IMG/VR virus record: IMGVR_UViG_3300035701_007061
Location: 1 to 62,274 of that record
Reading direction: 5' to 3' (one strand)
Source: a virus
Length of the DNA: 62,274 nucleotides
Shown here one piece after another: positions 23,338 to 57,354 of the stretch; the stretch's first letter is position 1; each line of letters begins with the position of its first letter. Position numbers and translations under genes: made by a program. The notes beneath the pieces are model-generated. The model was not told the origin of the DNA, searched no databases, and saw only the letters and a program-made list of their open reading frames with translations.

Positions 23338-24977
23338 TAACTTCTCCTACCTTTAATAAAATCTAAAATGTCAACAACTTTGCAATATTCATCACCGGGC
23401 AATACAGTCTTAATCAATAAATCTGTTGTCTTTAACTCACGGGCAGGAACCCATTCACATACATTACTATTTGCTCTTAATACTCCCCAAAGATGATCTT
23501 GTGAACAAACAAATGTTTTTCCTTGAATAGTTATCCTACATTTCTTTCTTTTAATTTTAGGCTTTCTCTCCATTGCTGGTCTATATCTGTGCATGTGTGT
23601 ATAAATCATGTCACCTTTTTTAATATCAACTATTTTTTTTAATCCATCAGCAGTATATACTAATGTATCTGCTTTAAAGCAGTCACCCTCAACCACAAAA
23701 AGCTCACAAATATCAGCATTTTTACTTGAACAATCTGCTAATTTTCCGGGCAATGACAAGGATGATAATATGTTTTTTCTTCTAACAGTTTCTCTTGCTT
23801 TTCTAGCTTCTTCACGAGCAATGCATGCTTGTGATATTTTTTCAGCAATTGTTAACGCGAGACCATCGTCATTATCAAATAATTTAGTTATTGACTCTAA
23901 AACAAAATCATAAACAATTTCTTTTATTTCTGGATTACCCAATGTAGATTTTGTTTGACCTTCAAATTCTGGATTCGGTAATTTAATTGAAATTATAGCA
24001 GTCAAACCTTCTAATATATCTCTTGGCGTGGGTCTAATATCTAAACCTTTAAATAGTTTTTTCTTTTCTGCATATTTTACAATTGCATCCAATAATGCAG
24101 ACTTAAATCCAGATAAATGAGTCCCACCGTCACGAGTATTTACATTATTTGCAAAAGAATAAATTACGTCAGTGTATGTCTTATTATATTGAAAGGCAGC
24201 TTCAATAATAACATCATATTGTTGATTACTAACTTGATTTTTAACTGTAACTGTATCATTGAAATAAATTCCAGTACATAAAACTTCTTTGTCTTTATTC
24301 AAATCATCAACAAAAGCTTTTATTCCGCCGTCTGAATAAAATTCAATTTGTTCCGAAGTCTTTTCATCAATTAAATTTATTCTTACACCCTTGTTCAAAT
24401 AAGCTAGTTCTTTTAATCTATTATATAATATTTTATATTGAAACTCAACAGTTTGAAATATTAAATGATCAGGCTTAAACTTAACAATAGTACCAGTTTT
24501 GTCAGTTTCATCACCTTTTGAAAATTCTGTAGCTGTTATGCCTTTTTTATATGTTTGACGCCAAGTATAACCCTCTTTATAAATTGTCAAATCTAATTGT
24601 TCTGATAAAAAATTAACAGCAGACACACCTATTCCGTGTAAACCTGATGATGTTTTATAACTTATAGAATCAAATTTGCCACCAGAATGTAATGATGTTA
24701 AGACAGTCTCAGCTGCAGCTTTTCCAGTTTGTGAATGTGTTCCAACCGGTATTCCTCGACCATTATCTTCAATAGTAACAAATCCATCTTTGTGAATAAT
24801 ACATGTGATTTTATCACCATAGCCATTTGTAATTTCATCAATACTATTGTCAACAACTTCATATACTAAATGATGCAATCCAAAAATACCAGTGTCACCA
24901 ATATACATTGCAGGTCTTAATCTTACATGAGATCGTTCATCTAGAACTTGAATCGAATTTTCATCATATTTTTTCAT
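23337..24977 (-). CDS. gyrB: DNA gyrase subunit B, N-terminal part with N-intein
   Basis: 546 residues. The GHKL ATPase domain has RPAMYIGDTG, EVVDNSIDE, EDNGRGIPVG and GLHGIGVSAVN in the first 130 residues. The transducer and start of Toprim follow, ending ELFVVEGD at residue 432. Here, inside the universal EGDSAGGSAK motif, Cys433 begins a 114-residue N-intein. The ORF then stops and the next gene begins with the C-intein. It is preceded by a coupled small membrane protein (TAATG overlap, CGGAG site). Trans-splicing with the next protein would give complete GyrB. Confidence 0.9.
   Translation of the reverse strand: MKKYDENSIQVLDERSHVRLRPAMYIGDTGIFGLHHLVYEVVDNSIDEITNGYGDKITCIIHKDGFVTIEDNGRGIPVGTHSQTGKAAAETVLTSLHSGGKFDSISYKTSSGLHGIGVSAVNFLSEQLDLTIYKEGYTWRQTYKKGITATEFSKGDETDKTGTIVKFKPDHLIFQTVEFQYKILYNRLKELAYLNKGVRINLIDEKTSEQIEFYSDGGIKAFVDDLNKDKEVLCTGIYFNDTVTVKNQVSNQQYDVIIEAAFQYNKTYTDVIYSFANNVNTRDGGTHLSGFKSALLDAIVKYAEKKKLFKGLDIRPTPRDILEGLTAIISIKLPNPEFEGQTKSTLGNPEIKEIVYDFVLESITKLFDNDDGLALTIAEKISQACIAREEARKARETVRRKNILSSLSLPGKLADCSSKNADICELFVVEGDCFKADTLVYTADGLKKIVDIKKGDMIYTHMHRYRPAMERKPKIKRKKCRITIQGKTFVCSQDHLWGVLRANSNVCEWVPARELKTTDLLIKTVLPGDEYCKVVDILDFIKGRRS
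23340..23681 (-). other. N-terminal half of split intein (GyrB)
   Basis: Residues 433-546 of the first GyrB ORF. Block A is CFKADTLVYTADG with nucleophile Cys433. Block B is VCSQDHLWGV, which keeps the His but has Cys-Ser where Thr is usual. It then runs through strand-rich sequence to LLIKTVLPGDEYC and DILDFIKGRRS before the stop. No homing-endonuclease domain lies between the halves, so this is a minimal, probably obligately split intein. Confidence 0.85.
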
Positions 24978-25976: not shown

Positions 25977-26580
25977 ATTTTTTAATTTGTTTAATCATTT
26001 CACCAATATAATGCATTCTTGATGAGTCGTTCATATATGTAAATATATAACTTGGATGATATGAAAATATAATTGGAATGTCTAAGTTAAAACGTTTTAT
26101 CACATTTTTTGCCACAGTCCCAAAAGCTATAATTACTTTTACCTTTTGCAATAACTTTATTCGTTGAAGTAAATATTCTTTGCAATTGTCTGTTTCATCA
26201 AAAGTTGGTTTTCTATAATCTGGCGGACTACAACAAACTACATTAAAATGCTGTACATCACACCAATGTAAATTGACTCCTTTAAAAATTTCAAACAATC
26301 TTTGTCCAATTAAAGCAACATATTGAATTCTATTGTCGTACATCTTGTGAAAATCATCTAATTTGTCAATATAAACTTCGCCTTTATGTGGTTTATAAAC
26401 GCCTGGCGCTTCACAAACAGAGCACACTTTAGCATTAACATAATGATTGAAATCAAATCCTAATACTGGACAATTGTGAATCTTTTTAATTCTTAAGTTA
26501 TACAATTCTTGACACTTATTACAATTAAAAATTTGACTTTCTAATTCATGAATTTTTCTTTGTAATAATGAATACTTCAT
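25969..26580 (-). CDS. uracil-DNA glycosylase, family 4-like
   Basis: 203 residues. The N terminus has NCNKCQEL (CxxC), then CSVCEAPGVYKPHKG, matching the catalytic motif region EAPG of family 4/5 enzymes that carry a 4Fe-4S cluster. NVVCCSPPDYRKP follows, then a Cys in DNCKEYL, then VIIAFGTVAKNVI, and finally SYHPSYIF, the conserved His-Pro-Ser of the leucine-loop region. It removes uracil from DNA. Its start overlaps the IscB stop by four bases, so both are translated from one message. An extra Cys pair (CSVC) is present beyond the usual four ligands. Confidence 0.8.
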   Translation of the reverse strand: MKYSLLQRKIHELESQIFNCNKCQELYNLRIKKIHNCPVLGFDFNHYVNAKVCSVCEAPGVYKPHKGEVYIDKLDDFHKMYDNRIQYVALIGQRLFEIFKGVNLHWCDVQHFNVVCCSPPDYRKPTFDETDNCKEYLLQRIKLLQKVKVIIAFGTVAKNVIKRFNLDIPIIFSYHPSYIFTYMNDSSRMHYIGEMIKQIKKYE

Positions 26581-27863
26581 AGAAAAATTAAACTTCCAAA
26601 ATTATAATATTTGTCAATTCTATCTATGTATTGTTGACAACTTTTACCATTTTCATCATTATATGTCACCCGTTTGCGTTTTCCAAAGCACCCTTTTGAA
26701 ATATATTTCTTGTTGTTTATCCATATCAAATCTTTGGGTTGTATTTTGAACCTTTGACGTCGTATTGAACGTTTAAAACCTTTTCTATTTAACTGTAATA
26801 TTCTATTATTTCTATGTTTTTGAACTACATTTTTATTAATTGCTCTTTCTTGATTATCTCCTCCTGCTATAATAAAGGCATCATCAGTATGAGTCTTTTC
26901 TAAATTATAAACTTGTCTTTTATTAAAAGTGTCAAATCCAAAAATAGTCTTATAACCATCTTCTAAAAATCTTTTACTAATAATGTTCATAAAAGCAGAC
27001 TGTCTATAAATTTTATCTTTCTCGAACATATCTAACATTTTGTTTTTATGAATTTTTTTGTGACAAGATTCATGTACATAAGCTATATTAGCTTTTCTAT
27101 TAGTTCCATACAGTCTAGTAATAATGTGATGTTCATTAACGTGATTAGTATTACTAAAATTTTTATGGCACAATTGACATTTACTATTATCAATTAATTT
27201 TGACGACTTAATATTACTGTTAAATTTTGCAACTTCTATAATAACTTCTTTAATAGGTAAGAGTTTTTTTAATTTATTAATCAAATTAACATGAGTATTA
27301 TACTTTCTTTTAATTGACGGCGACAACCAACCTTTTTTACTAGATTTTCTATTATTAAATCTAGACTTTCTATACCACAATCTATCTCTTCTATTTCTTC
27401 GATACATTCTGCGATTTGCTAATCTACTAATCGTTTGACAATCTAATGTCAATGTTCCAGAAATTAATTCTTTTGTTTTAGTAATTGCTGAATAACCAAT
27501 ATACTTAAATCCACTATCTATGCCTAACATGACATCTTGAACCACATTTTCACAATTAAAAGTTAATCTAATTGTAAAAGGATAATTTTTAACGACATTA
27601 GCTCTCCTTTTTTTTAATAATTTTCTAGCTTTTGCACAACTACACGGCATTAATGGTTGCGCATTTACATTTAATACATACACAATGTCTTTAAGACCGC
27701 TTGTATGTAAGCGTTGATTCACTTCGAGATTGTTACAATCCAGTACTTTGTCTTGATCACTAAGACTTACATCTTTGTTTAAATCAAAACTTATAGAGCT
27801 ACAAACTAGTGAAGCATTTGTAGGTATGTTGTTTAACTTTAATTGTAACTGCTGCATTTTCAT
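26577..27863 (-). CDS. iscB: IscB RNA-guided nuclease (RuvC plus HNH)
   Basis: 428 residues. After a 60-residue N-terminal extension comes the PLMP domain (YVLNVNAQPLMPCSCAKAR, 62-80; RYPFTIRL-like VKNYPFTIRL, 91-100). RuvC-I has Asp116 in MLGIDSGFK. The Arg-rich bridge helix lies at 150-172. RuvC-II has Glu210 in VIIEVAKFN. HNH lies at 229-272 with C229/C232, HH at 245-246 and C267/H268. RuvC-III has His325/Asp328 in HTDDAF. A basic C-terminal domain follows (KGFKRSIRRQRF; GCFGKRKRV). All catalytic residues are present. There is no TnpA nearby. It is operonic with uracil-DNA glycosylase. Confidence 0.88.
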   Translation of the reverse strand: MKMQQLQLKLNNIPTNASLVCSSISFDLNKDVSLSDQDKVLDCNNLEVNQRLHTSGLKDIVYVLNVNAQPLMPCSCAKARKLLKKRRANVVKNYPFTIRLTFNCENVVQDVMLGIDSGFKYIGYSAITKTKELISGTLTLDCQTISRLANRRMYRRNRRDRLWYRKSRFNNRKSSKKGWLSPSIKRKYNTHVNLINKLKKLLPIKEVIIEVAKFNSNIKSSKLIDNSKCQLCHKNFSNTNHVNEHHIITRLYGTNRKANIAYVHESCHKKIHKNKMLDMFEKDKIYRQSAFMNIISKRFLEDGYKTIFGFDTFNKRQVYNLEKTHTDDAFIIAGGDNQERAINKNVVQKHRNNRILQLNRKGFKRSIRRQRFKIQPKDLIWINNKKYISKGCFGKRKRVTYNDENGKSCQQYIDRIDKYYNFGSLIFL

Positions 27864-27872
27864 GCTCTCTAA

Positions 27873-27921
27873 TCGACTTTTTCATTAAATGTCACCATTT
27901 AAACTAAAAATTAGCAGTCGA
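27873..27921 (-). ncRNA. structured leader of iscB, candidate guide-RNA scaffold or regulatory element
   Basis: In the 96-base gap upstream of iscB the minus strand can form a 6-bp outer stem (TCGACT at the 5' side, AGTCGA at the 3' side). This encloses an inner TTAAAT/ATTTAA hairpin with a GGTGAC loop. IscB omega-RNAs are encoded directly upstream of the ORF but are normally about 200 bases. This element is far shorter, so it may be only part of one, or a leader that controls translation. Confidence 0.35.
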
Positions 27922-27959
27922 CATGTACGAACCTGTTAAATTAAAAAATTAATTATTTT

Positions 27960-42837: not shown

Positions 42838-44721
42838 TTACAACAATCCTTCACTTATTAATCTTTGAGCAAATGATTCAACATCATTATATGTTTCGAC
42901 ATCTCCATTTTTGTCAACAATATATTCTTCCAATAATGGCTCACCATTTTTTTCATCATAATTAGATTTGATAGTGATATATCCATCATCAGTTTTTATT
43001 GAATCTTCAGTAGAATATTTTTTTGTTGAATCAACCATTGGCAAAGAAAATTCTTCTACAGATACTTCTGCTGGTTCTACCATTTCAATAATAGCTGAAA
43101 CTTTTTCATCAAAAGATTTTTTCTCTTTATAATGAGGCTCTGGCTTTTTAGTTAATTTTCCACCTTTGCCCCATGATTCTCCAGGTTTTTTCTTACTCAT
43201 CCACCAACTATTATGAACAAAAACACCTGCATCAAGCGCAAAATTGTGATATTTATCAACTGTAAAATCATAAACATCTTCTTTAATATCAATCAATCTA
43301 ACATTAATAACTTTATGATTTACAATCATATTATGTCTTTTTTCAGTCTCAAAAACAATATTGTCAATAGATCCAAATTTTTCTATTGCTTTATCAAATG
43401 GCGGATTCTTTCTGGTTCGTCTAAATCGTTCCCAGGAGTCTTCATTAATTGGAAGTACAGCATCTAATATTCTTTTTGCAACTTTTAAAATTCTAGACTT
43501 TATCATACTGCCATATAAACTTCTGTCTTTTGCGTATTTTTTTAATGTTTCTACATCATTAAATAATTCAATAGCCGTACTAAAATTAGGGCTTGAAGCA
43601 TATCCTTTGTGCTCACTCCAAGTCGCTTCATTAACATCTAATCCTAAAGAAATTATTTTTGCTGCTATTTTTGTAATTTTACCTTTTGTCATTGAACCAT
43701 TAAGAGTTCTTTCAGCAACAGCATCTTTAGTTTTTTGTGAATTATTAAATTTTAACAATGCTTTTCTTCCTGTTTCTGCGCCTAATTGCCCATTTTTTTT
43801 ACAATTTTCAATTTGTTGTTCTCTTTGCTCTTGCCATAATTTTTTCATGTTTTTCTTGCCATTAATAGACGACATTTTTCGTCCTTTTTCAGATCTAATA
43901 TATTCTATTAAATGCTTAGCACCATCTTGTTGTCTATGAAATTTAGAATGATCACTAGCTGTCATGATTTTAATATTTTCTGGATGATTATTGTCTTTAT
44001 TAAAGTCATAATGATGATTAATAAACCCAGATTGCCATTCTTTACCAAAATTATATGCAGCAACTATACGATGAACAAAATGTTTTTTACCATCTTTTGA
44101 CCACACTCTTTTATAATCTTGACAAAATGATCCTTCATGCCTGTCAAAATAAATTGGCATTAATGAATCGTTTGACTTTAAATTTTTTGCTTCTTTATAT
44201 GATCCATCTTGCATTAAAAATTTATGAAATAATGTGCATTTTATTTTCTGTCCATTGTCTAATTCTATTTCAAGCACATTAGCGTTTTCTGCAGTTTTAT
44301 GAAAATTAAATGCTCGACCAACAACAACTTTATCATTTTCAATGTCATACGAATAAACATAAGTATCTTTATCGTTTCCAAATTCTTTAACCAATTCAAT
44401 CATTGTTAATACTCTACCATCTAACAATGGAACTTTTGTATCTGCAGTAAAACATAATGCCCATGGGTTTGTAATATTTTTATGCGATTTCATAGCCTCA
44501 GTGGTTCCCTTCCATCCTTTTGGCGACACTGCCTCTTTCTCTTCTGCAGCCAAAATCTCTGTAGCAATTTTTTCAACATTGCTCATGTTTGACTCCTTTA
44601 CTCTATTTTTAAATTGTCGTTTGACTTGTTTTTGTAACATGTCTGGTAGACTAACATACTGTTTTTCAAGTTGATCTAAACCAGACGTACCGTAATCTCT
44701 ATTTTCAATTAATGGTTGCAT
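42838..44721 (-). CDS. small phage structural-type protein interrupted by an HNH intein
   Basis: 627 residues of which residues 90-504 are an intein. The spliced host protein would be 212 residues: an N-terminal helical part with KGWKGTTEAMKSHKNITNPWAL, joined to SWWMSKKKPGESWGKGG and a C-terminal part ending in FAQRLISEGLL. Proteins with the NPWALxWWM-type motif recur in large phages without known function. The insertion point splits the most conserved stretch, as inteins usually do. The start overlaps the stop of the Ig-domain gene (TAATG). Host function unknown. Confidence 0.8.
   Translation of the reverse strand: MQPLIENRDYGTSGLDQLEKQYVSLPDMLQKQVKRQFKNRVKESNMSNVEKIATEILAAEEKEAVSPKGWKGTTEAMKSHKNITNPWALCFTADTKVPLLDGRVLTMIELVKEFGNDKDTYVYSYDIENDKVVVGRAFNFHKTAENANVLEIELDNGQKIKCTLFHKFLMQDGSYKEAKNLKSNDSLMPIYFDRHEGSFCQDYKRVWSKDGKKHFVHRIVAAYNFGKEWQSGFINHHYDFNKDNNHPENIKIMTASDHSKFHRQQDGAKHLIEYIRSEKGRKMSSINGKKNMKKLWQEQREQQIENCKKNGQLGAETGRKALLKFNNSQKTKDAVAERTLNGSMTKGKITKIAAKIISLGLDVNEATWSEHKGYASSPNFSTAIELFNDVETLKKYAKDRSLYGSMIKSRILKVAKRILDAVLPINEDSWERFRRTRKNPPFDKAIEKFGSIDNIVFETEKRHNMIVNHKVINVRLIDIKEDVYDFTVDKYHNFALDAGVFVHNSWWMSKKKPGESWGKGGKLTKKPEPHYKEKKSFDEKVSAIIEMVEPAEVSVEEFSLPMVDSTKKYSTEDSIKTDDGYITIKSNYDEKNGEPLLEEYIVDKNGDVETYNDVESFAQRLISEGLL
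43210..44454 (-). other. intein with HNH homing endonuclease
   Basis: 415 residues, Cys90 to Asn504. Block A CFTADTKVPLLDG; block B KCTLFHKFL, where His of TxxH is present; block F VYDFTVDKYHNFALDAG; block G FVHN followed by Ser. Between B and F lies an HNH endonuclease: HRIVAAYNFG, GFINHHYDFNKDNNHPENI and TASDHSKFHR, followed by two copies of a helical NUMOD-like repeat (LNGSMTKGKITKIAAKI and LYGSMIKSRILKVAKRI). HNH rather than LAGLIDADG is the less common inteinic nuclease class. All splicing residues are intact. Confidence 0.88.
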
Positions 44722-45501: not shown

Positions 45502-45537
45502 AAAAATAAAAGGACCGACAAATTGTCAGCCCTTTCA
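45502..45537 (-). terminator. Rho-independent terminator after the vWA gene
   Basis: Minus-strand stem of about ten pairs (GGCTGACAA with TTGTCGGTCC, flanked by AAAG/CTTT) followed by TTTTATTTTT. It ends the signalling-gene transcript and isolates it from the tail module. Confidence 0.85.
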
Positions 45538-45556: not shown

Positions 45557-46306
45557 CTAGTACTGAGCAATTCTTGATTTTGATACTACAACATCGTCTC
45601 TGTCAATTTTCAATAAACCGCTAATCTCATCTTCGGTACGACCCTTTGACAACATATCTAAAATTTTAGAATCTAAATTAATATTGTCAAATTCAGACTT
45701 AAGCGTCTTGACAATTGCATTCATTGCATCTGTATCTTCTATTAATATTCCGCCAGTAAAATTAGCTAACGTCTTAAAACATAATGATGTATATTTATTC
45801 ACAATTAAACTAATTGCATAAATAATAACATTCTTTTCTTGCGCAACATTAATAGCATCACCCCATGTTTTACCACATAAACAACAATCTTCATACGACA
45901 TCATACCATGTGCTGGTGCATCTCCAATTAAAAAAGCAATTCTTCTACTATCTTCACGCCAACTCATATTATTTATGCCGTCAATAATGCCGTCAATCAC
46001 TGCTTCTGGAATATCACCGCCACCTCTAACTGTAATTTTAGATATTGTATCAGATATTGTTTCAACATTATTTAAGTCAAATGTCACTGTCACAAAAGTC
46101 TCTTCTTGTGACGGATGATCTCTATATACACTTAATCCAACTTTTAAATCTATTGTAGGCAACAACAATCCATTATTATTATTGTAACTATTTGTCTCTT
46201 GACATAATGATGTTAACATGTTTTGCATCTTACATTTAGCATCATTTATAAACCCTCCCATTGAACCTGTAACATCAACAATAAATAATAAATCTATTTT
46301 ATTCAT
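45557..46306 (-). CDS. von Willebrand factor A domain protein
   Basis: 249 residues from ATG 46306, which overlaps the preceding stop (TAATG) and has an AGGAGG site; a longer ORF start at 46351 is not needed. The MIDAS is LLFIVDVTGSMGGF (DxTGS), with the later metal residues in VRGGGDIPEAV and FLIGDAPAHG. The C-terminal 45 residues form a helix-turn-helix-like segment (RTEDEISGLLKIDRDDV). vWA domains bind partners through a divalent metal. It ends an operon with two zinc-motif genes and is the second vWA gene of the region. Confidence 0.82.
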   Translation of the reverse strand: MNKIDLLFIVDVTGSMGGFINDAKCKMQNMLTSLCQETNSYNNNNGLLLPTIDLKVGLSVYRDHPSQEETFVTVTFDLNNVETISDTISKITVRGGGDIPEAVIDGIIDGINNMSWREDSRRIAFLIGDAPAHGMMSYEDCCLCGKTWGDAINVAQEKNVIIYAISLIVNKYTSLCFKTLANFTGGILIEDTDAMNAIVKTLKSEFDNINLDSKILDMLSKGRTEDEISGLLKIDRDDVVVSKSRIAQY

Positions 46307-47499
46307 TATTTTCCTCCTACTGGTAATGAATCCAAAAATGATTCTTTGCACCCAGTCAAATTGTTTAATCCATCTTCAACAAATCTTTCAAATTGCTCGC
46401 GAAAAACAAAGTAAATTCTTATAATACCAGATGGTTCATCTTGCCAAGCTTTTATTGACCTCATATCTTTTTCAATCATTTGCCGTATTTTTTCACCTGC
46501 ACCAATACCAACACTAGCATCTATCGATCGTTCCCGCTCTTCTAATATTAAACCGCTAGACGTCTTTATTTCAAAAGCCTCTGCAGCAGCCACTGGCATA
46601 GCACATATAGTGCTACCAATTGTATCATCAATTGTTGAAGATGAATTACTATCACTCATGTCGTGCACACTGTCATCACTCATATAAAGTGAACTGTAAT
46701 ATATGCCGGGCGTAGCAGAGTGCGGTAAAGACTTTCTGCTACATTTTGATCGAGCATCGGACCCACAAACTCCTGATGATCCCTTAAATCCTGTATATCC
46801 ACGCATACCCATTGATCCTGTAACACCAAATGTCCGTGCAGACTCTTGTTCAGTTGGCCATATATTTTTTAATCTTTTTCCGTTTTCAAACTTAACTTTT
46901 TTATCTTTTAATGAATAAAAACAAAATCCAAAAGCAGGCATAGTGTCTTCTTTGCCAATAACAAGCTCAGGAATTGACTTCATCATATCTTCAGTAAAAT
47001 AAAATTGTCTAACTTCGCCATCAGACGATCTAAATCCATCAAGATAAAACTTGCAAGGATCTGCAACATAATTTTGTTCTGGCCATTTAAAATTACATTC
47101 AGAACAAAACTTACCATATTTAAATTGTATATCATGAACAGGACATTTATTCATATATTGTTCCAATCCAAGCCCGTCAATTCGTTGACCAGTTATAGGA
47201 TTCATGCCTTTCACTGATGTCAATATTGCAATATCTCGTTTATTCATTTCCCAGTTAAACCACAGTGCCCAATCTGATTCAATGGGACATACATACGATC
47301 CTTGACCACCAATCCAAAAATTTGGTCTATTCTTAAGATAATCTACAGGTAAACATGGAATTGGAATGCCAGGAGGCAAATTACCATTATGATTATCAAC
47401 TTTATCAGTTCTCATTATTGACACATAATGACCATTTATATTCATTATTCGATTCATATTTTTAGTTACAGCAAAACCCAATGCATCTCTTGAAATCAT
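46306..47499 (-). CDS. zinc-motif protein with collagen-like segment, vWA operon
   Basis: 397 residues. Near residue 118 is CPVH-x9-C-x-E-C-x2-KWP, the same motif as in the upstream neighbour. Residues about 226-250 are eight consecutive G-x-x triplets (GVTGSMGMRGYTGFK...), a short collagen-like run. The C-terminal third contains a Ser/Asp-rich linker and a helix (EKIRQMIEKDMRSIKAW). I do not recognise the family. Its stop overlaps the start of the vWA gene, so the two products are made together and may form a complex. Confidence 0.6.
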   Translation of the reverse strand: MISRDALGFAVTKNMNRIMNINGHYVSIMRTDKVDNHNGNLPPGIPIPCLPVDYLKNRPNFWIGGQGSYVCPIESDWALWFNWEMNKRDIAILTSVKGMNPITGQRIDGLGLEQYMNKCPVHDIQFKYGKFCSECNFKWPEQNYVADPCKFYLDGFRSSDGEVRQFYFTEDMMKSIPELVIGKEDTMPAFGFCFYSLKDKKVKFENGKRLKNIWPTEQESARTFGVTGSMGMRGYTGFKGSSGVCGSDARSKCSRKSLPHSATPGIYYSSLYMSDDSVHDMSDSNSSSTIDDTIGSTICAMPVAAAEAFEIKTSSGLILEERERSIDASVGIGAGEKIRQMIEKDMRSIKAWQDEPSGIIRIYFVFREQFERFVEDGLNNLTGCKESFLDSLPVGGK

Positions 47500-47520
47500 A
47501 ATTTCATCCCTTCAAAATTT

Positions 47521-47546
47521 AATGCAGCTCTACTTAGAGCTGCATT
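47521..47546. terminator. strong hairpin between zinc-motif genes
   Basis: Perfect 11-bp inverted repeat (AATGCAGCTCT / AGAGCTGCATT) with a four-base loop, six bases after the upstream stop. A T-run follows on the plus strand and a weaker TTAAATTTT on the minus strand. Probably a partial terminator or mRNA stabiliser within the operon. Confidence 0.65.
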
Positions 47547-47551
47547 ATTTT

Positions 47552-48493
47552 TTAGTATTGTTTATGTATTACTCTAAAAGGATCACCGTTTTTAGTTGAA
47601 GATAATCTTCGTTTCATAACAGGAAGACTGTCAGTTTCTTCCAGCTCTTGAAATTTAAGCATTATTTTAGGATAATGACTTTTCAACTCTTCAAGTATGT
47701 AACGGTCTTCTGAATCATCTTCTGAATATGCTCTAATAGCAGTTGGCTGCACTTTTTCAATTTGTGACATCAATCGAATAAATGCATATTTTTTCTTGTT
47801 TTTCTCAAAATTAGGCCATTTAATGCCACATTCTTCACAATAACCGTCAGTCAGTAAAACATTAGAATGAACTGGGCATTCATAAAGTACATCCATTGGA
47901 AATTCACCAACAGCATATACCTTGCAAATTTTACCAGCAACTTCAAACGTTGACGGAGTTAGTGCATATCTTGCTTGACGTAACAATACTAGTGATGTGT
48001 CAATGTCAATTTTTTTATTGTTATAATCAAAAAATACAATGCATGGTCTATCTTTAGACCTCTTTCGTAATTCTTCAACTATTTCAAAAGATGTATCTTT
48101 ATCATACTTATGTAATAAATCTGTATCAGACCATTGACCAATCGGTTTTTGCATTTCCAATTGCTTCATAACAACACTAACTACATCAACATTATGCGGC
48201 ATTTCAACTTCTTTTTGTTTAAATGGATCAATACCCTTTAATATCAACAACATTATTTTCAATCTTGGCCCCGGAATAACTGAAATAGCTACAATTGAGG
48301 ATTTCAATTTTTCAACGTCATCAATTGAAACTGCTGCAGATTCTAATATTTGAATTCCAAGATCAGTGTCGTCAATACCCAATTTTTGAAGTATGTTATC
48401 AATCGCTTGAACGGGATCTGTTTCTTTGAAAAATGGTCTAATAATATTTGCGGCTTGCTCTATGCGGGATTTTAAAACTTCATTCGTAAACAT
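47552..48493 (-). CDS. zinc-motif protein, vWA operon
   Basis: 313 residues. A helical N-terminal 100 residues, a central beta-rich part (RPCIVFFDYNNKKIDID), then CPVH-x9-C-x-E-C-x2-KWP near residue 220, identical in layout to its downstream neighbour. The tail is basic (KRRLSSTKNGDPFRVIHKQY). The shared motif with otherwise different sequence suggests a domain that binds a common partner. The gene has a strong AAGGAG site and an unusual leader with three similar hairpins. No known family recognised. Confidence 0.6.
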   Translation of the reverse strand: MFTNEVLKSRIEQAANIIRPFFKETDPVQAIDNILQKLGIDDTDLGIQILESAAVSIDDVEKLKSSIVAISVIPGPRLKIMLLILKGIDPFKQKEVEMPHNVDVVSVVMKQLEMQKPIGQWSDTDLLHKYDKDTSFEIVEELRKRSKDRPCIVFFDYNNKKIDIDTSLVLLRQARYALTPSTFEVAGKICKVYAVGEFPMDVLYECPVHSNVLLTDGYCEECGIKWPNFEKNKKKYAFIRLMSQIEKVQPTAIRAYSEDDSEDRYILEELKSHYPKIMLKFQELEETDSLPVMKRRLSSTKNGDPFRVIHKQY

Positions 48494-48512
48494 TCTTAAT
48501 CTCCTTGTTTTT

Positions 48513-48588
48513 GAACCTTTATTCAGTTCGGTTGTGTTATACCTTTTATTCAGTATAACAATTTTGTTTTTTGACCTTTAATCAGTCA
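48513..48588 (-). promoter_or_regulatory. three-hairpin array in the leader of the zinc-motif gene
   Basis: On the minus strand three hairpins carry nearly the same loop on different stems: TGAC-TGATTAAAG-GTCA (48588-48572), TGTTATAC-TGAATAAAAG-GTATAACA (48560-48535) and GAAC-TGAATAAAG-GTTC (48529-48513). Stems change by compensating pairs while the loop stays, which is the mark of selected RNA structure. It ends about 20 bases before the start codon. Probable binding sites for an RNA-binding translational regulator. Confidence 0.65.
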
Positions 48589-48685
48589 GTAAATTAATCT
48601 AATGCATTTTAACTATTGACAATATCCTCCTTTCATTTTATTGTAATAATAAAATACTTTATCAACAAATTTTTAAAATTTACAA

Positions 48686-50292: not shown

Positions 50293-51981
50293 TTACTTCA
50301 TTGATACTGAATATAATTTGTTACCATCAACAAATAATGGCTGCATGTCTTGATGATGTAATCTCATTGAAACATCTAACGGCAAATTCGTAGTTATTTC
50401 TTTTACACTTTTCTCAGTAAATATAGACAACTTTTCATCATCAATTGCTATTGCTAATTTGTTCGGTAATACGACAAAATTGACTGAACAAAAAGCACTA
50501 ATTTCTTCTTGCTTCAATGTATGACTTGAATGATCATTATTAAAATAAATTATTGTTTTCGTATATTTTCCGTGCTTTTCAGACATTACTATACATACAT
50601 ATTTATCATATCTAGCATCAATAATACGATGACCATCTAACTCATTAATATGAATATTTATGCAAGATTTTCTTTCAAATGGTATTGCAATCCTACATTT
50701 TATAAATACATCTTGCACAACTACACCTCTAAATGCCTTGTATGATTTTCCAACATTACATACTTCAATTGTTGAATGAATTATTTTCTTACCAAATAAC
50801 TCGAAACTGTTTTCTATTAATTTGCCATTATTCATAGAATAAACCATACCATTGTAGCCCATCATGTCTTCAGCTTCAATAGCACTAAGAAGATTATGCT
50901 GTAAATCAAAAAACTCTAATCTCTTGTTAACTAATTCAGCAACTATTGGCTTTTGATTAAAAACATCGCACATGCCAACTGTCGCACTTTTTATTTTAAA
51001 GTCATATATTTTTTTACCACTATCATCATATATATGCTTAGAAGTGACTATATATCTATTTGTATAAAACACAATCACTCCTCTGATATTCTCTTCAACT
51101 TCTGCAACAAGCTTAACAATAAAATCACCTTTACTGCCAACAACTCTAGTCACTGCAGCAGTTATTACTACATCATCTGCGTATGGCGGAACTGATCGTT
51201 CTTTTTTCATAAAAACAGCTTTATACCATTCAAGGTGTTTTTTAGGAATAACTGAAAATGGTTGACATGTGTCAGGCAAAGTAACATCTTTGTCAAACAC
51301 AGAAACATTAAGATCCATTCTCTTCATAAATTCAGCTGGTTTAAATGTCGGATGTATACCTTTATAAGGATGAATTCCAATGTACATTTGAAATGTGACA
51401 ACTGCCCATGAAAACCAATCAGTAACTTCTGAATATTGACCCATTGGCACAGTTCTATCTCTTATTGATTCCATGATAACAGGAGCATTAAAATTTTTAG
51501 TTTGCCATGAATCAACATCAATATGATAAACGCGACAAAATGCTTTGTCTAACAAAAAATTCATTTCATTATAATCGACTACAAGAATACCATTTGTATG
51601 TATGTATTTTAAGCTTTCTTGCATGTTTTTTACTAAATCAATTATTTGTTGAGTTGTGATATTTTTGTCATCTCGAAAAGTTTTTGTGAAAATTTGACAT
51701 AAAAATTCTGTATCATCAATGTATGACATTGTAAAGCCTATCTGGTCTTTACTCATATTATAAATGATATCTTTTGGCGACAAAATCTCATCACGTTGCA
51801 ATTTACAAAGCTCTCTAATCTTTACCTCAGCAATCATATCACTTGAGTCGTGGTATATCTTGTATGCAACATTGTCTTTAACATACACGACAGCTTGACC
51901 ACCTGCAGCTTTGTAGTCATTGTTATTGTCCAATGTCACGACTTTATTTTGTACTAAAATTTTCTGAACATCTACTTTCAT
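50293..51981 (-). CDS. Ser/Thr protein kinase with C-terminal propeller-like region (TerY-P type)
   Basis: 562 residues from ATG 51981 (ATGA overlap with the phosphatase stop). Kinase domain about 20-280: Gly-rich loop AAGGQAVVYV, Lys in VAYKIYHD, catalytic loop GILVVDYNEMNFLLD (Asp and Asn present, HRD replaced by VVD), and metal Asp in YHIDVDSW in place of DFG. Residues 290-562 are repeated beta-strand units like a propeller (VGMCDVFNQKPIVAEL...LYSVSM). Directly coupled to a PP2C phosphatase and near a vWA gene, the arrangement described for the TerY phosphorylation triad. Substrates unknown. Confidence 0.78.
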   Translation of the reverse strand: MKVDVQKILVQNKVVTLDNNNDYKAAGGQAVVYVKDNVAYKIYHDSSDMIAEVKIRELCKLQRDEILSPKDIIYNMSKDQIGFTMSYIDDTEFLCQIFTKTFRDDKNITTQQIIDLVKNMQESLKYIHTNGILVVDYNEMNFLLDKAFCRVYHIDVDSWQTKNFNAPVIMESIRDRTVPMGQYSEVTDWFSWAVVTFQMYIGIHPYKGIHPTFKPAEFMKRMDLNVSVFDKDVTLPDTCQPFSVIPKKHLEWYKAVFMKKERSVPPYADDVVITAAVTRVVGSKGDFIVKLVAEVEENIRGVIVFYTNRYIVTSKHIYDDSGKKIYDFKIKSATVGMCDVFNQKPIVAELVNKRLEFFDLQHNLLSAIEAEDMMGYNGMVYSMNNGKLIENSFELFGKKIIHSTIEVCNVGKSYKAFRGVVVQDVFIKCRIAIPFERKSCINIHINELDGHRIIDARYDKYVCIVMSEKHGKYTKTIIYFNNDHSSHTLKQEEISAFCSVNFVVLPNKLAIAIDDEKLSIFTEKSVKEITTNLPLDVSMRLHHQDMQPLFVDGNKLYSVSMK

Positions 51982-52805
51982 ATTATTATAGCTCCACAGC
52001 AAATATCATCATAATGCGACCATTGCATTTTTAAAGCTTTCTTTTTCAAAAATTTCATACAACACTCAACAAATACACCATCAGTTGATGCAAAATCTGT
52101 AAACTCAGCTGCCATTGTCAATAATGATATATCAATAATATTCTTTTCCTTATACGACTTAATGCCATCTGAACATATCGTTATTGACGACTGTAATCTA
52201 GGAGTATAAAGAGAAGCAATACATTTAAATGGATCTTGACTTTTATCAACAACTGTTGGCACAGCATCCGTACCCAACCAATAATCTTTAACAACAACTT
52301 CACAAGGCTCATTCGAATCTCTTCGATCATTTCTATAAGCTTGCTCATCAGTCACAAGATAAATCGGTGCTCCGCATGGATAAGAAATCTCTTTAACATT
52401 GATTTCTCCCGTTGACCACTTACTAATGATTACTCCATCACCCCATGAAAATGTGTAAGCATTGTTACCATAAGCTAAAGCAATATGTAATGTTGCTTGT
52501 AAAGAGGCTTGCGGAATTGGATACAGCTTTCGAATATCATCAATTCGTTTAAAAATACTGTTACCCAATAACGATGATAAAGCATCAAGATCACATTGTT
52601 TAAATATTCTCGACTGATGTAATAATATTATAGTATGTTTTGCAACATGACATATTATTTGAGCGCCTATCTCAGAATGCTCTGCTTCAGAGCATCCATC
52701 AGATATAATTGAATATGTCATGCCGTCGTATGAACCACTCAATGCATAATCTTGACAAACAATATGACTGGAACCTATTTCAAAATAAGAATCACTATTC
52801 ATCAT
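51978..52805 (-). CDS. PP2C-type protein phosphatase
   Basis: 275 residues with a GGAGG site; the second of two adjacent ATGs (52802) is equally likely. PP2C motifs: CQDYAL with ISDGCSEAEHSEIGA (first metal Asp pair), FSWGDGVII (motif with DG), ITICSDGIKSY, and the final YDDICCGAIII Asp pair. It would remove phosphate from Ser/Thr residues set by the adjacent kinase. Stop codon and kinase start overlap by four bases. This strict coupling implies matched amounts of the two enzymes. Confidence 0.85.
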   Translation of the reverse strand: MMNSDSYFEIGSSHIVCQDYALSGSYDGMTYSIISDGCSEAEHSEIGAQIICHVAKHTIILLHQSRIFKQCDLDALSSLLGNSIFKRIDDIRKLYPIPQASLQATLHIALAYGNNAYTFSWGDGVIISKWSTGEINVKEISYPCGAPIYLVTDEQAYRNDRRDSNEPCEVVVKDYWLGTDAVPTVVDKSQDPFKCIASLYTPRLQSSITICSDGIKSYKEKNIIDISLLTMAAEFTDFASTDGVFVECCMKFLKKKALKMQWSHYDDICCGAIII

Positions 52806-52866
52806 GCAACCTCCTGTTGACTTTGTTTATCGTTCATGCACCCTTGCAAAATTTTAGCCACTTTGT

Positions 52867-52974
52867 TTATATTATAAATGTCAAGTGCAAAATCTTGTAA
52901 TAGTTTCCAGTAAATACAAATATTGCACTACCGCTTCCAGGAATGTTTGTTGGTTTACTTATTGGATATCTCAT
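52867..52974 (-). CDS. possible 35-residue ORF or relic between vWA and phosphatase genes
   Basis: ATG at 52974 with GAGGAATATATCC upstream gives a short peptide starting MRYPISKPTNIPGSGSAIF. A second open frame immediately after (YWKLLQDFALDIYNINKVAK to a stop overlapping the phosphatase start) has no start codon of its own. Together they look like one small helical protein broken by a frameshift. Weak support only. Confidence 0.3.
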   Translation of the reverse strand: MRYPISKPTNIPGSGSAIFVFTGNYYKILHLTFII

Positions 52975-53023
52975 ATTTTCTACATAACAAACTGGATATA
53001 TTCCTCAATATCCAGCTCGCTCA

Positions 53024-53794
53024 TTAAAATTTAAGACTGATCGGTTGTGAAGGTCCGCCCGTACCTTTTGCTTGTGCCTGAGATGAAGTGCTACGACTAA
53101 CAAATTGAGCAAGTTTAGCTAATTTACCAGCACTAACTTCACCAACTGAAATGTATTCATCGAGTCCAGCTTCTTTAACGAACGCTTCAAGGCGAGCCTT
53201 GAAATGAGCATCTGTGTCATTAATACCGATAAGTATTGTACGAATTGATTCAAGAATTTCTTCAGTTTTAATCTTCTGAATCATTTCTTTAATATTTGCA
53301 GTCGTAATGTTCATGGACGCATTATTGTCGCCATCTGTTATAATAAACACTATAGCATTACAAGTAATTTTCTTTGTCTTGTAAAGCTTTGCAGTGTAAT
53401 CATGAAGTGTCTCAATTGCTTCAAGCGTGGCTTCATATAAAGGCGTTCCGCCATCAGGTTTAATTGCTCCTTTGTACTGAGCAGTATCAATAGTATCCAA
53501 TAAAGTATAACCATGAATTTCATCAATATGTGATCGATTCATGTCAGCATTAAACTTTGTTACACGAGCTAACAAATTGTTTTTTCTGGGAGACTTCTTA
53601 CATGCATTGATACTTTCAGAAATCATGTTTTCAAGATCATTTACAAAAGGACTAACAGAACCAGTAGCATCAACAACAATCTCAGTTATTGTGTACTCAG
53701 ACGCTCCTAGCTTTTCAGCCTTAACATTTGAATACTTAAAACCGCGTGCAGTCTGTGCTATGTCTGCATCAGTCATACCCATCATCTTTGGCAT
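53024..53794 (-). CDS. vWA domain protein, TerY-like
   Basis: 256 residues. MIDAS motif VVDATGSVSPF (DxTGSxS) near residue 46, Thr in GGTPLYEA near 118, and Asp in FIITDGDNNAS near 152, in the order and spacing of TerY-like vWA proteins. The C terminus is Ser/Gln/Gly-rich (RSTSSQAQAKGTGGPSQP). Good AAGGAG site. Followed in the same direction by PP2C phosphatase and kinase; this gene order is the reason for the TerY-P comparison. Preceded by the nicotinamidase gene with a 30-base gap, so the NAD genes and the triad are probably one transcript. Confidence 0.82.
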   Translation of the reverse strand: MPKMMGMTDADIAQTARGFKYSNVKAEKLGASEYTITEIVVDATGSVSPFVNDLENMISESINACKKSPRKNNLLARVTKFNADMNRSHIDEIHGYTLLDTIDTAQYKGAIKPDGGTPLYEATLEAIETLHDYTAKLYKTKKITCNAIVFIITDGDNNASMNITTANIKEMIQKIKTEEILESIRTILIGINDTDAHFKARLEAFVKEAGLDEYISVGEVSAGKLAKLAQFVSRSTSSQAQAKGTGGPSQPISLKF

Positions 53795-53827: not shown

Positions 53828-54637
53828 TTAGAAAAATGTCTTTGTCGTGGCAGTACGCATTCCTTTTGCAACCATACGATTAACAAAATCATCGCCGTCC
53901 TTTTCAAAGCCACCCACACTTGAAGTTGCATCAGTAAGAAGCACAATCTTCTTAACCTGATCATCTCCAAAATCCTCAGCAATGTCAGACATTGTAAAAT
54001 TCAAACAGTGAGAAAGTGCCCAACCCCATACAAGGATATCATCAAACGTCTTCAAAACATTAACAAAGTCATTATTAAACCTTGTTGAAATATCTTTCGG
54101 ATATTCTACTTCTGCCTTAACAGCAGAATAATGTTCAGTAAACATACATGAACCTTTTGTAGTCCTCACAGCCATAGCATAAAAGTCATGCTCCCACTTA
54201 GTCACTGCTTCATATATAACAGGATCAATTTTTTGCCCATCTGATCCAATAATACAATGATCATTCCATATACACACAGTAAACCGCTTGTTCTTCATCA
54301 ATTGCTCAGTATAATACTCAGACCACTGTTGCCGCGCTGGATCATTTGCTCTAAAATCCTTGCTCATAACAGCATCATGCGGAATAAGAGTAAATTGTTT
54401 AGGATGATTATTATTCTTATCCAACCACCAACAAGAATGTGCAATATGGATATGATAATGTGAATCCATCGTAAGCTGAATATCATCGATGTCTCCACCA
54501 TATCGAGTTATCATCTTTGACACATTGTCAGCGCCAGCAACAGCACCGTCAACCTTAAGCTTAGCTTGTCCACTACGATTTACAAAATCGTCTTGTGGAT
54601 CAATTCCAAGAACACAAACTTTTCTTTTTGTAGCCAT
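53828..54637 (-). CDS. pncA: nicotinamidase-like isochorismatase-fold hydrolase
   Basis: About 269 residues from ATG 54637, six bases after AAAGG. Catalytic Asp in VLGIDPQDDFV; metal ligands in MDSHYHIHIAHSCWW (D-x-H-x-H); a Lys/Arg region; catalytic Cys in WALSHCLNFT. All three active-site elements of nicotinamidase are present. It would hydrolyse nicotinamide to nicotinate and ammonia, supplying the next two enzymes encoded upstream. Somewhat longer than the bacterial family (about 210) because of loops near 80-110. Other amides are possible substrates. Confidence 0.78.
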   Translation of the reverse strand: MATKRKVCVLGIDPQDDFVNRSGQAKLKVDGAVAGADNVSKMITRYGGDIDDIQLTMDSHYHIHIAHSCWWLDKNNNHPKQFTLIPHDAVMSKDFRANDPARQQWSEYYTEQLMKNKRFTVCIWNDHCIIGSDGQKIDPVIYEAVTKWEHDFYAMAVRTTKGSCMFTEHYSAVKAEVEYPKDISTRFNNDFVNVLKTFDDILVWGWALSHCLNFTMSDIAEDFGDDQVKKIVLLTDATSSVGGFEKDGDDFVNRMVAKGMRTATTKTFF

Positions 54638-54656
54638 ACACATCCTTTCATTTAAT

Positions 54657-55463
54657 TTAATTATAGTTGCATATTAACGGCATTACCATTTTATGCAAAT
54701 TATTTTCGTGCCTTTTTAAATAATTATATAAAGTCTTTTCTTCAACATCAACCAATTCAATAAAACCTAATTTTTTCAATTCTTCATAGTGTTGAACAGT
54801 CTCAATCTTCAATTTTTCACAAAATAACATTGCTTTTTCAAGATTTACATAAGTATCACCTATCTGATCTTCGTCAGTACGATTATCACCCCAAAGTCCA
54901 TCTGTAGGTTTTGCCTGTTGTATTGATGGAATAATCTCAAAATATCTTGCAATATCATATACTTCAGACTTCATAAAATCACCTATTGGACTAATATCTA
55001 CTCCGCCATCACCATACTTCGTAAAAAAACCAATGCCAAAATCTTCAATTTTATTTCCTGTACCAACCACTAAACATCCAAAACTATTAGCATAAGCATA
55101 TAATGTAGTCATTCTCAATCTAGACCTCATATTTGCAAGCACTAAATCATAATTTAAACACAGTCGAATAGAGTCTTTTAATGATTCAAATGCTTCCGTC
55201 AAATCTAAATAATAAGACACAACATTAGAATATCTCTCTAATAACCACGTTACGTGATCTGAAGCTTGGTCAATTTGTGTTTGACATTGATGTATTGGTA
55301 AACTAATAACCATAGTAGATTTATCTGTTTCAGCACAAAGAGCAGATACAACAGCAGAATCAATTCCCCCAGAAATACCAATAACAAATCCATTTTGTTT
55401 AGAGTCAACTAATCTACAATTAAGCCAATTAATTACTTTTTTAATTTCATTTTCACTTATCAT
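54657..55463 (-). CDS. nadE: NH3-dependent NAD synthetase
   Basis: 268 residues from ATG 55463 (GGGAG site). The P-loop of ATP pyrophosphatases, GISGGIDSAVVSALC, lies near residue 33. VGTGNKIEDFGIGFFTKYGDG, PIGDFMKSEV and QAKPTDGLWGDNRTDEDQIG are family signatures near 135-205. No glutaminase domain, so it uses ammonia to convert deamido-NAD to NAD. The start overlaps the preceding regulator gene by 11 bases. Length and motifs are normal, indicating an active enzyme. Confidence 0.92.
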   Translation of the reverse strand: MISENEIKKVINWLNCRLVDSKQNGFVIGISGGIDSAVVSALCAETDKSTMVISLPIHQCQTQIDQASDHVTWLLERYSNVVSYYLDLTEAFESLKDSIRLCLNYDLVLANMRSRLRMTTLYAYANSFGCLVVGTGNKIEDFGIGFFTKYGDGGVDISPIGDFMKSEVYDIARYFEIIPSIQQAKPTDGLWGDNRTDEDQIGDTYVNLEKAMLFCEKLKIETVQHYEELKKLGFIELVDVEEKTLYNYLKRHENNLHKMVMPLICNYN

Positions 55464-56181
55464 TTTTTGGTCTCCCAACATTATTAATTGGAATATTTAA
55501 TTTTCTCAAACTAAGATAAATTGTACTTGCAGACGTATGCATTTTTTTTGCAATTTCATCAAGGTTTAATTTCTTCTCTACATACAATTTATATAACTTG
55601 TCACTTGAAACAGTTTGAACAAATAACTTTTTCTTTTCTATTTTTTTATTAAAAACATACCGTTTCAAAATATTAATAGCATCTTCAAAAGTCAAAGCAT
55701 ATCCTAAGCACATCTGACTTTGAGGCGTATATATAAAATATCTTTTATTTTTTCTATTATGCATATATGGAAATTTACCGCTTTCTTTTTCACAAAGAAG
55801 TCTTGAATCAGGATCTTTAAACCGTCTTTTCAAACATTCTAAAATCACTTTAGATTTATCAACAACAACATAAGATAATTTATAATCTTTAAACTTGTGA
55901 TAATGTGCTTTAGCAATTATTCTAATATTAGCTTTTGAATACAAATAAATCTTTTCATCTTTTCCTTGAAATATAACTATACCCGGCATTTTTGGAAGTA
56001 ATGATATTACGGGCCGATTCTCTCTAAATATAGCTTTTAACTCATAATCTATGCCATAATACAGCGCTTTTTGATGTACTGCTTGATGAGACACACCTAT
56101 TTGATTTGCTAAATCTTTTAAACAAGTAGCTTTTATTCTTTCTGCTATACTCAACAACTCACTAGTTGACGTTTTTTCCAT
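55453..56181 (-). CDS. DNA-binding protein with two helix-turn-helix regions
   Basis: 242 residues. An N-terminal HTH (CLKDLANQIGVSHQAVHQKA, about 20-39) and a C-terminal HTH (LNLDEIAKKMHTSASTIYLSL, about 208-228) flank a mixed alpha/beta middle with aromatic and basic residues (NRKNKRYFIYTPQSQM). It lies between nadE and the nicotinate phosphoribosyltransferase gene, overlapping nadE. It could regulate the NAD operon, or be a homing-nuclease-like DNA-binding protein that lost its nuclease. No ligand-binding domain recognised. Confidence 0.6.
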   Translation of the reverse strand: MEKTSTSELLSIAERIKATCLKDLANQIGVSHQAVHQKALYYGIDYELKAIFRENRPVISLLPKMPGIVIFQGKDEKIYLYSKANIRIIAKAHYHKFKDYKLSYVVVDKSKVILECLKRRFKDPDSRLLCEKESGKFPYMHNRKNKRYFIYTPQSQMCLGYALTFEDAINILKRYVFNKKIEKKKLFVQTVSSDKLYKLYVEKKLNLDEIAKKMHTSASTIYLSLRKLNIPINNVGRPKNDK

Positions 56182-56187
56182 CTTTCC

Positions 56188-57354
56188 TCAAAATAACTTT
56201 AATGTCTCTTTACATAACCTCACTTCAGCTTCATTACCAGTATTCTTTGACTCAGTATCTGATAACTTTACTGCCCATACCCATCGACCATTTACATAGC
56301 ACGCAGTCAACTTAATAACCATATTCAATGGCGTAACACCAACATCATTGGACATCCATGTACCTGGCCCATATCGATCATTTATTCGATTCTTACAATA
56401 ATCATGAATTTGTGTAACTTTACCTATACTATTTATATTGTCAGAATACAATATAGTCTTAAACATCGGCGACACTTTCAATTTTCTATAATGATCAACA
56501 ACCTTATCAGTAAAAACAAATGGATCAAATGAATCATGTCGCAAACCATCCCACAACTTAGTATGATATGTATTAAACGACCTCAAAAACTCGTCTGTCG
56601 TAAATGTATCCGGCAAAGCTATTCCAAGATCACCCTGATAAACATTTGACCATGCATCTAAAGACGCTTTATTTGCCATTTGATATCCGAACATAGCTGC
56701 ATGTGCAGATATCCATTCATGAGCAAGTGTTCCCATTGGTGTAAGTTCATACAACATAGCCAAATATGGATTAGATGTGCCTACTAAATGATTACCTGCA
56801 TATTCTTTCATGTCAGCGACACACATTTTCTGATTCTCAAATGAATATCTTCGTCTTGTACCAAACTCAGAAAAGTACACGCCCAAATTAGCTAATGCAA
56901 CAGCTTTATCATGATTAATCTTATGTCGCTCTTCTATAGATAAACCTTTCAACCCCTTCATCTCAAAATACAGTTCGCTTATCGTTGCCATCAATGGTAC
57001 TTCCCACAAAATCGTTCGATACCAATAACCTTCAACTGTCACAAATAAATGACCACCTGGCTGAGAAATACTTACTTCAGATGGATCATACTGATAACCA
57101 CTCAAAAAATCAAGATACATACTTGGTAAATAATAACACTTATATCTAAGAAAATCTTTCTCATTTTTTTTAAGTGTTAGTCCTCTATAACTATCTACAA
57201 TTTCTTTTAATCGATTTGCAAAACCTACAGGAAATTCTACGTCGTCTCTAATTATTAAAGTATACCGAACTTTCAAATCCGGATATAACTTACAAACTGC
57301 CCATTCCATAGTAAATTTATATAAATCATTGTCAATGAGACTTGTATGATACAT
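56188..57354 (-). CDS. pncB: nicotinate phosphoribosyltransferase
   Basis: 388 residues. The N terminus SLIDNDLYKFTMEWAV is the family signature. LWEVPLMATISELYFEMKG, FGTRRRYSFENQ (catalytic phosphoribosyl site), LVGTSNPYLAMLY and PMGTLAHEWISAHAA (with the conserved His) follow in order. It makes nicotinate mononucleotide from nicotinate and PRPP, using ATP. It is the first large gene of the NAD salvage group; with nadE and pncA it covers the pathway except the NadD adenylylation step. Motifs are intact. Confidence 0.9.
   Translation of the reverse strand: MYHTSLIDNDLYKFTMEWAVCKLYPDLKVRYTLIIRDDVEFPVGFANRLKEIVDSYRGLTLKKNEKDFLRYKCYYLPSMYLDFLSGYQYDPSEVSISQPGGHLFVTVEGYWYRTILWEVPLMATISELYFEMKGLKGLSIEERHKINHDKAVALANLGVYFSEFGTRRRYSFENQKMCVADMKEYAGNHLVGTSNPYLAMLYELTPMGTLAHEWISAHAAMFGYQMANKASLDAWSNVYQGDLGIALPDTFTTDEFLRSFNTYHTKLWDGLRHDSFDPFVFTDKVVDHYRKLKVSPMFKTILYSDNINSIGKVTQIHDYCKNRINDRYGPGTWMSNDVGVTPLNMVIKLTACYVNGRWVWAVKLSDTESKNTGNEAEVRLCKETLKLF

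Follow-up and report, generated by a model that had tools for sequence, protein, structure and literature searches.

The gene-1 operon and its leader

The DNA analyzed here, referred to as the window, is the whole of IMG/VR virus record IMGVR_UViG_3300035701_007061, a stretch of 62,274 bases with a G+C content of 31%. Relatives of its capsid protein occur in contigs of 416, 330 and 211 kb, so the window most likely represents one piece of a huge-phage genome. A first-pass annotation of the sequence had described three hairpins in the leader of the gene at 47552-48493 (gene 1), and these hairpins are present on the minus strand (48588-48513) with the stems and loops then given, directly upstream of gene 1 and ending 6 nt before its Shine-Dalgarno (SD) sequence. 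In their 5' to 3' order on the minus strand, the features of the locus are:

48637-48665, minus strand: putative promoter TTGATA-17-AATAAA, a weak consensus match just upstream of the polypurine element
48626-48633, minus strand: polypurine element AAAGGAGG, SD-like and STAB-SD-like, the sole copy of this 8-mer in the window
48572-48588, minus strand: hairpin 1 (HP1), TGAC / loop TGATTAAAG / GTCA, with an equivalent hairpin in the leaders L038, L039 and L040
48535-48560, minus strand: hairpin 2 (HP2), TGTTATAC / loop TGAATAAAAG / GTATAACA
48513-48529, minus strand: hairpin 3 (HP3), GAAC / loop TGAATAAAG / GTTC
48501-48506, minus strand: SD of gene 1, AAGGAG, unpaired in the fold
47552-48493, minus strand: gene 1, 313 aa, with a CPVH...GYCEEC zinc motif
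47520-47547, minus strand: intercistronic hairpin between gene 1 and gene 2
46306-47499, minus strand: gene 2, 397 aa, with a zinc motif, beta-rich, with a disordered collagen-like insert
45557-46306, minus strand: gene 3, with a vWA domain (Pfam VWA_4), an optional member of the operon found in only part of the relatives
45507-45537, minus strand: terminator-like hairpin followed by TTTTTG, the probable end of the three-gene unit

The minus strand reads ...TTTACTGACTGATTAAAGGTCAAAAAACAAAATTGTTATACTGAATAAAAGGTATAACACAACCGAACTGAATAAAGGTTCAAAAACAAGGAGATTAAGAATG at the gene-1 leader and AAAAACAAGGAGATTAAGA from HP3 to the gene-1 ATG. Neither gene 1, which belongs to a huge-phage family, nor gene 2 has a Pfam, PHROG or NCBIfam name. 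The AlphaFold model of gene 1 is mainly helical (pLDDT 85, pTM 0.45), and that of gene 2 has one beta-rich domain and carries an insert that is disordered (pLDDT 69, pTM 0.65). Fold searches with the two models returned no convincing structural match, the best for gene 1 being the NafY N-terminal domain at a Z score of 5.9, below the level to trust. Among the 33 leaders within the window, that of gene 1 ranks fourth in structure; the most structured is the gene-2 leader, which contains the intercistronic hairpin. A hairpin is found between gene 1 and gene 2 in about 22 of the 24 sequences compared, and the sequences of these hairpins are unrelated.

Several other features were observed on the minus strand of the window. 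Close to the gene-1 operon, a protein kinase, a PP2C phosphatase and, by eye, a vWA-like ORF lie in a row (50293-53794), in a TerY-P triad-like arrangement, and an NAD salvage set lies at 53828-57354, with an NAD synthase and a nicotinate phosphoribosyltransferase (Pfam) and a nicotinamidase-like ORF (by eye). A 428-aa RRXRR/HNH protein (26577-27922), the start of which is overlapped by a HEARO RNA (Rfam RF02033, 91 bits), represents an IscB-like nuclease with its guide-type RNA in a huge phage. GyrB is encoded at 22570-24977 as two ORFs meeting at 23337, the first ending in an intein N-terminal-like sequence and the second opening with an intein C-terminal-like one (HSFLIEGGFVVHN), so that this phage gyrase may carry an intein that is split or broken. 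An intein with an HNH domain also follows NPWAL in the phage protein encoded at 42838-44721 and resembles the inteins of RtcB-type proteins.

Three hairpins in the window and in close relatives

When the closing U-G pair is counted, the stems of HP1, HP2 and HP3 comprise 5, 9 and 5 bp. A single substitution and a single inserted A distinguish their loops, which lie 32 and 27 nt apart from loop to loop, in agreement with the spacing of about 30 bases noted in the first-pass annotation. For the 91-nt stretch of the array, both the minimum free energy and the centroid structures predicted by RNAfold consist of exactly these three hairpins (-17.0 kcal/mol), and none of 200 shuffles is as stable (z = -3.88); in a 141-nt frame, z drops to only -2.06.

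The density of hairpins at the array is unremarkable, since 532 of 3554 window segments (15%) hold at least 16 stem pairs, and total stem length against shuffles is a weak measure for single leaders. The sharing of loops is a different matter. In a census of hairpins with stems of 4 or more and loops of 8-10 (1246 hairpins per strand), the only neighboring hairpins with at most one loop difference are the arms of two adjacent tRNAs, which constitute a natural positive control for the scan, and the triple reported here. Thirty random 62-kb strands with the same dinucleotide steps hold a mean of 0.67 loop-sharing pairs each and not a single triple, and the shared loop is therefore not due to chance. 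A scan of IMG/VR for the doubled loop motif matched 15 other contigs, none of them with stems longer than 2 bp.

Single-sequence searches of IMG/VR with gene 1, gene 3 and the terminase revealed no relatives, but the three contigs found through the capsid protein share the operon, with identities of 45-52% for gene 1, 51-60% for gene 2 and 61-62% for the vWA gene. The gene-1 leaders of these three huge-phage contigs (L038, L039 and L040), together with that of the window, are designated group A. Each of the three folds as three hairpins at the same location, with z values of -4.36, -3.40 and -3.78, respectively, and no shuffle out of 200 as stable in any of them, and in the close relatives 4-8 nt separate the structure from the SD that follows it. 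In the MAFFT alignment, HP2 is fully paired in all four phages, has two pairs altered on both sides and beats every slid register. The aligned arms of HP1 and HP3 are off by one in some rows, so that the impartial pair count undercounts HP1 and omits HP3, and counts on hand-placed arms, which pair by construction, are of descriptive use only.

Identity across phages is 0.79, 0.82 and 1.00 for the stems of HP1, HP2 and HP3, and 0.62, 0.58 and 0.70 for their loops, HP3 combining an invariant stem with a variable loop. The exact doubled loop pattern was not found in the relatives, and the near-constant loop is peculiar to the window's phage. Some loop preference may nonetheless exist in group A: 7 of its 12 hairpins carry a C(UGA N1-3 AAA) loop, a type present in 15 of the 3334 hairpins of the window at large. 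The same folds recur at the same place in relatives, and stem pairs have changed in both partners, which identifies the hairpin array as a selected RNA structure. This bears out one proposal of the first-pass annotation, a selected RNA in the gene-1 leader, not only in the three relatives that keep the triple hairpin but also in distant ones that keep other covarying structures. Its further proposal, a constant loop read by a protein on changing stems, is not supported by the comparison. The loops of all three hairpins are less conserved than the stems (0.58-0.70 against 0.79-1.00), and loops varying as freely as stems in related phages had been named in the annotation itself as the observation that would count against it.

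Leader structures across the wider family

Profile searches place gene 2 in a family of 26 IMG/VR contigs of up to 548 kb, three of which are the close relatives, and gene 1 precedes gene 2 in all 23 remaining contigs. No relatives of gene 2 were found by profile searches of GTDB genomes, nor of gene 1 or gene 2 in named phages. In one of the contigs (94.9 kb), gene 1 is broken into two ORFs (L044:3911-4912). The leaders of the distant huge phages mostly differ from the triple hairpin and consist of pseudoknots and hairpins with compensatory changes. In group A' (L045 and L046), a hairpin formed by GAACC, an A-rich loop and GGTTC precedes the SD, as in group A. Group B (L050, L054, L056, L058, L061, L062 and L064) presents an H-type pseudoknot, AACC-GA-ACATGC-A-GGTT-n-GCATGT, followed by hairpins and then by the SD. 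Group C (L067, L074, L075 and L076) is arranged as a hairpin, with a TATAAT-like box just 5' of it, a pseudoknot, CCCT-nC-CATGT-AGGG-nnn-ACATG, the sequence GAGNGYGAG and the SD. The pseudoknots of groups B and C show pair changes on both sides, exceeding slid registers. Group D (L066, L068, L069 and L072) carries low-complexity TTTAG-like repeats, and nothing obvious could be seen by eye in the leaders L044, L070 and L073.

The group-B leader L061 folds no better than shuffles, its pseudoknot lying outside the folding model. Inspection for a pseudoknot in group A identified none in the window, L039 or L040, and a possible one in L038. What the leader groups share is the location, gene 1 and, for most of them, a folded RNA. 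In Rfam 15, no family matches the leaders of the window and of 14 relatives' loci at the gathering threshold, and those of the window, L061 and L075 reach nothing near the gathering score at a relaxed one.

With a covariance model of group A (R1), each of the four genomes yields a single strong site at 80-97 bits, which is the gene-1 leader; the model also detects the leader of a further genome absent from the model (G038, E 0.0046), all other matches being at chance level. The group-B model (R2) likewise finds one site per genome, including leaders outside the model in G016, G019 and G020. The contigs searched with the group-A model held no further strong copy, which suggests that the leader acts in cis and is not one site of a regulon. 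The exception is G022 (L062:2486-3975), in which the leader sequence occurs twice around a 464-aa ORF (Pfam DUF723 and DUF4379, with a Vsr-like CIEYDGGQHF) that begins within the first copy and ends within the second. The first copy matches L061 and L064 as far as GATGCTCAAAA, and the second is complete, with altered sequence but conserved pairing (ATATGC/GCATAT, TGAGC/GCTCA, GCTGATA/TATCAGC). This arrangement looks like the invasion of a homing endonuclease with the leader structure preserved. As support for a role of the leader it is only suggestive, since homing-endonuclease genes occupy many phage sites.

Possible roles of the leader and comparison with known systems

In all four group-A phages, an SD-like sequence (AAAGGAGG, AGAGGAGG or AAAGGAGA) lies 130-140 nt before the gene-1 start codon, and the TTGATA box of the putative promoter is found in three of them (the window, L038 and L039). 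The polypurine element has no well-spaced, conserved start codon, the window offering only a TTG at a spacing of 3 nt, and an upstream mini-ORF behind AAAGGAGG was rejected because its short frame is not conserved in the relatives. STAB-SD-like sequence was seen only in group A and in group A', where it falls within the end of the upstream gene.

The hairpin array belongs to a structured 5' leader that is conserved in huge phages, acts in cis on the gene-1/gene-2(/vWA) mRNA and leaves the SD open, and this leader presumably controls the expression of gene 1. The account placed first, a tentative one, is that it may protect the message and hold the ribosome-binding site open. An SD-like polypurine near the presumed 5' end would hold a 30S subunit, the three short hairpins would hinder nucleases and mispairing ahead of the true SD, the SD itself would be kept in a defined unpaired context, and the hairpin 3' of gene 1 would protect the other end of the message. 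Structure would outweigh loop letters, leaving lineages free to use either three hairpins or a pseudoknot with hairpins. Protection with an open ribosome site is placed first because stems count above loops, one architecture can stand in for another, a known stabilizer is matched by the polypurine and a hairpin flanks the other side of gene 1. Against it speak the weak promoter match and the restriction of the STAB-SD-like element to groups A and A'. In groups B and C, moreover, some unpaired letters are conserved (GA and A within the pseudoknot, GAGNGYGAG 3' of it), as would be expected of a binding site rather than of a passive block.

A translational operator was the role put forward in the first-pass annotation. 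It is a serious possibility of somewhat lower probability, although the argument from loop constancy fails beyond the window's phage. An RNA-binding protein of the phage, in the simplest case the gene-1 product acting autogenously, would bind the hairpins or the pseudoknot next to the SD and, when in excess, block ribosome loading. Pseudoknots beside the SD, the strict association with gene 1 and the T4 parallel place it close behind protection. The structure keeps its short distance to the SD in each close relative, the site lies in cis with gene 1, one per phage, the loop motif recurs in over half of the group-A hairpins, and gene 1 bears a zinc motif. Furthermore, the H-type pseudoknots that groups B and C carry before the SD recall the T4 gp32 system, and the DUF723 ORF overlaps the pseudoknot in L062 much as segG does in T4 (PMC535899). 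Against an operator stand the greater variation of loops than stems across phages, the strongly different leader architecture between lineages, and a gene 1 model with no convincing match to an RNA-binding fold.

Other explanations are much less probable. A compact pseudoknot close upstream of the SD is a common riboswitch architecture and is found in groups B and C, and no Rfam family explains the leader. A ligand-sensing riboswitch or other metabolite-responsive leader is nevertheless unlikely, given three independent hairpins in group A, no core of conserved letters across groups, an Rfam blank even at the relaxed threshold and genes 1-3 that are not recognizable as metabolic. Slightly more doubtful still is the processing of the hairpins into a small RNA acting in trans. 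The array forms a discrete structured unit with a possible promoter of its own, but the gene-1 SD always follows immediately, no conserved unpaired seed is present, and there is a single cis site per genome. Least probable of all is a neutral origin, with hairpins sharing loops by accident in AT-rich sequence. Hairpins are plentiful in the contig, and near-identical loops are confined to the window's phage; however, random strands yield no loop-sharing triple, position and folding are conserved in four phages, and both-side pair changes occur in three groups.

A more elaborate scenario, which must be regarded as doubtful, would see here a new leader-RNA family of widely diverged huge phages. 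Gene 1, representing a new family of zinc proteins, would bind the leader of its own message; the shape that it recognizes would have arisen anew several times, as three hairpins or as a pseudoknot with hairpins; and a homing endonuclease would have invaded, bringing a re-coded copy that keeps the fold and loses the target sequence. The regulatory leader RNAs of huge phages are hardly charted, and a literature search on them found nothing on this element, which has covarying helices in several lineages and is absent from Rfam 15. The leader also flags two conserved genes with no known function, the expression of which these phages apparently need to tune, and the series from hairpin array to pseudoknot with hairpins permits testing whether selection sees structure, sequence or a bound protein.

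Three known systems offer points of comparison. As in the gene 43 operator of T4 and RB69, a short leader hairpin lies upstream of the start codon of a phage gene (PMC3014915). That operator is a single hairpin in which T4 and RB69 have conserved the loop letters, and its sequence overlaps the ribosome site (PMC3014915), whereas here there are three hairpins, the loops are not conserved between phages, the SD lies outside the hairpins and gene 1 is no polymerase. The STAB-SD of cry3A is an SD-like polypurine that does not direct translation; located near the 5' end of a stable transcript starting at -129, it binds 30S subunits and stops RNase J1 (PMC4113751). The polypurine of the window resembles it in being SD-like, in lying some 130-140 nt before the start codon and in having no usable start codon (PMC4113751). 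In contrast to cry3A, it precedes three conserved hairpins. STAB-SD elements have been described in Gram-positive bacteria.

The T4 gene 32 operator consists of a pseudoknot and an unstructured stretch over the ribosome site, its structure being kept while its sequence diverges, and the reading frame of the homing endonuclease segG overlaps the pseudoknot (PMC535899). Unlike gene 32, group A, to which the window belongs, shows three hairpins without a clear pseudoknot, the window has no UUAAA/UAAA repeats over the SD (only group D has repeats there, of the TTTAG type), and gene 1 is not recognizable as a single-strand-binding protein. On the other hand, as in the gene 32 operator of T4 and RB69 (PMC535899, PMC3014915), a structured leader RNA lies just upstream of the ribosome site, with its fold kept as its sequence diverges, and the likeness extends to the pseudoknots of groups B and C and to the endonuclease frame overlapping the pseudoknot in L062.
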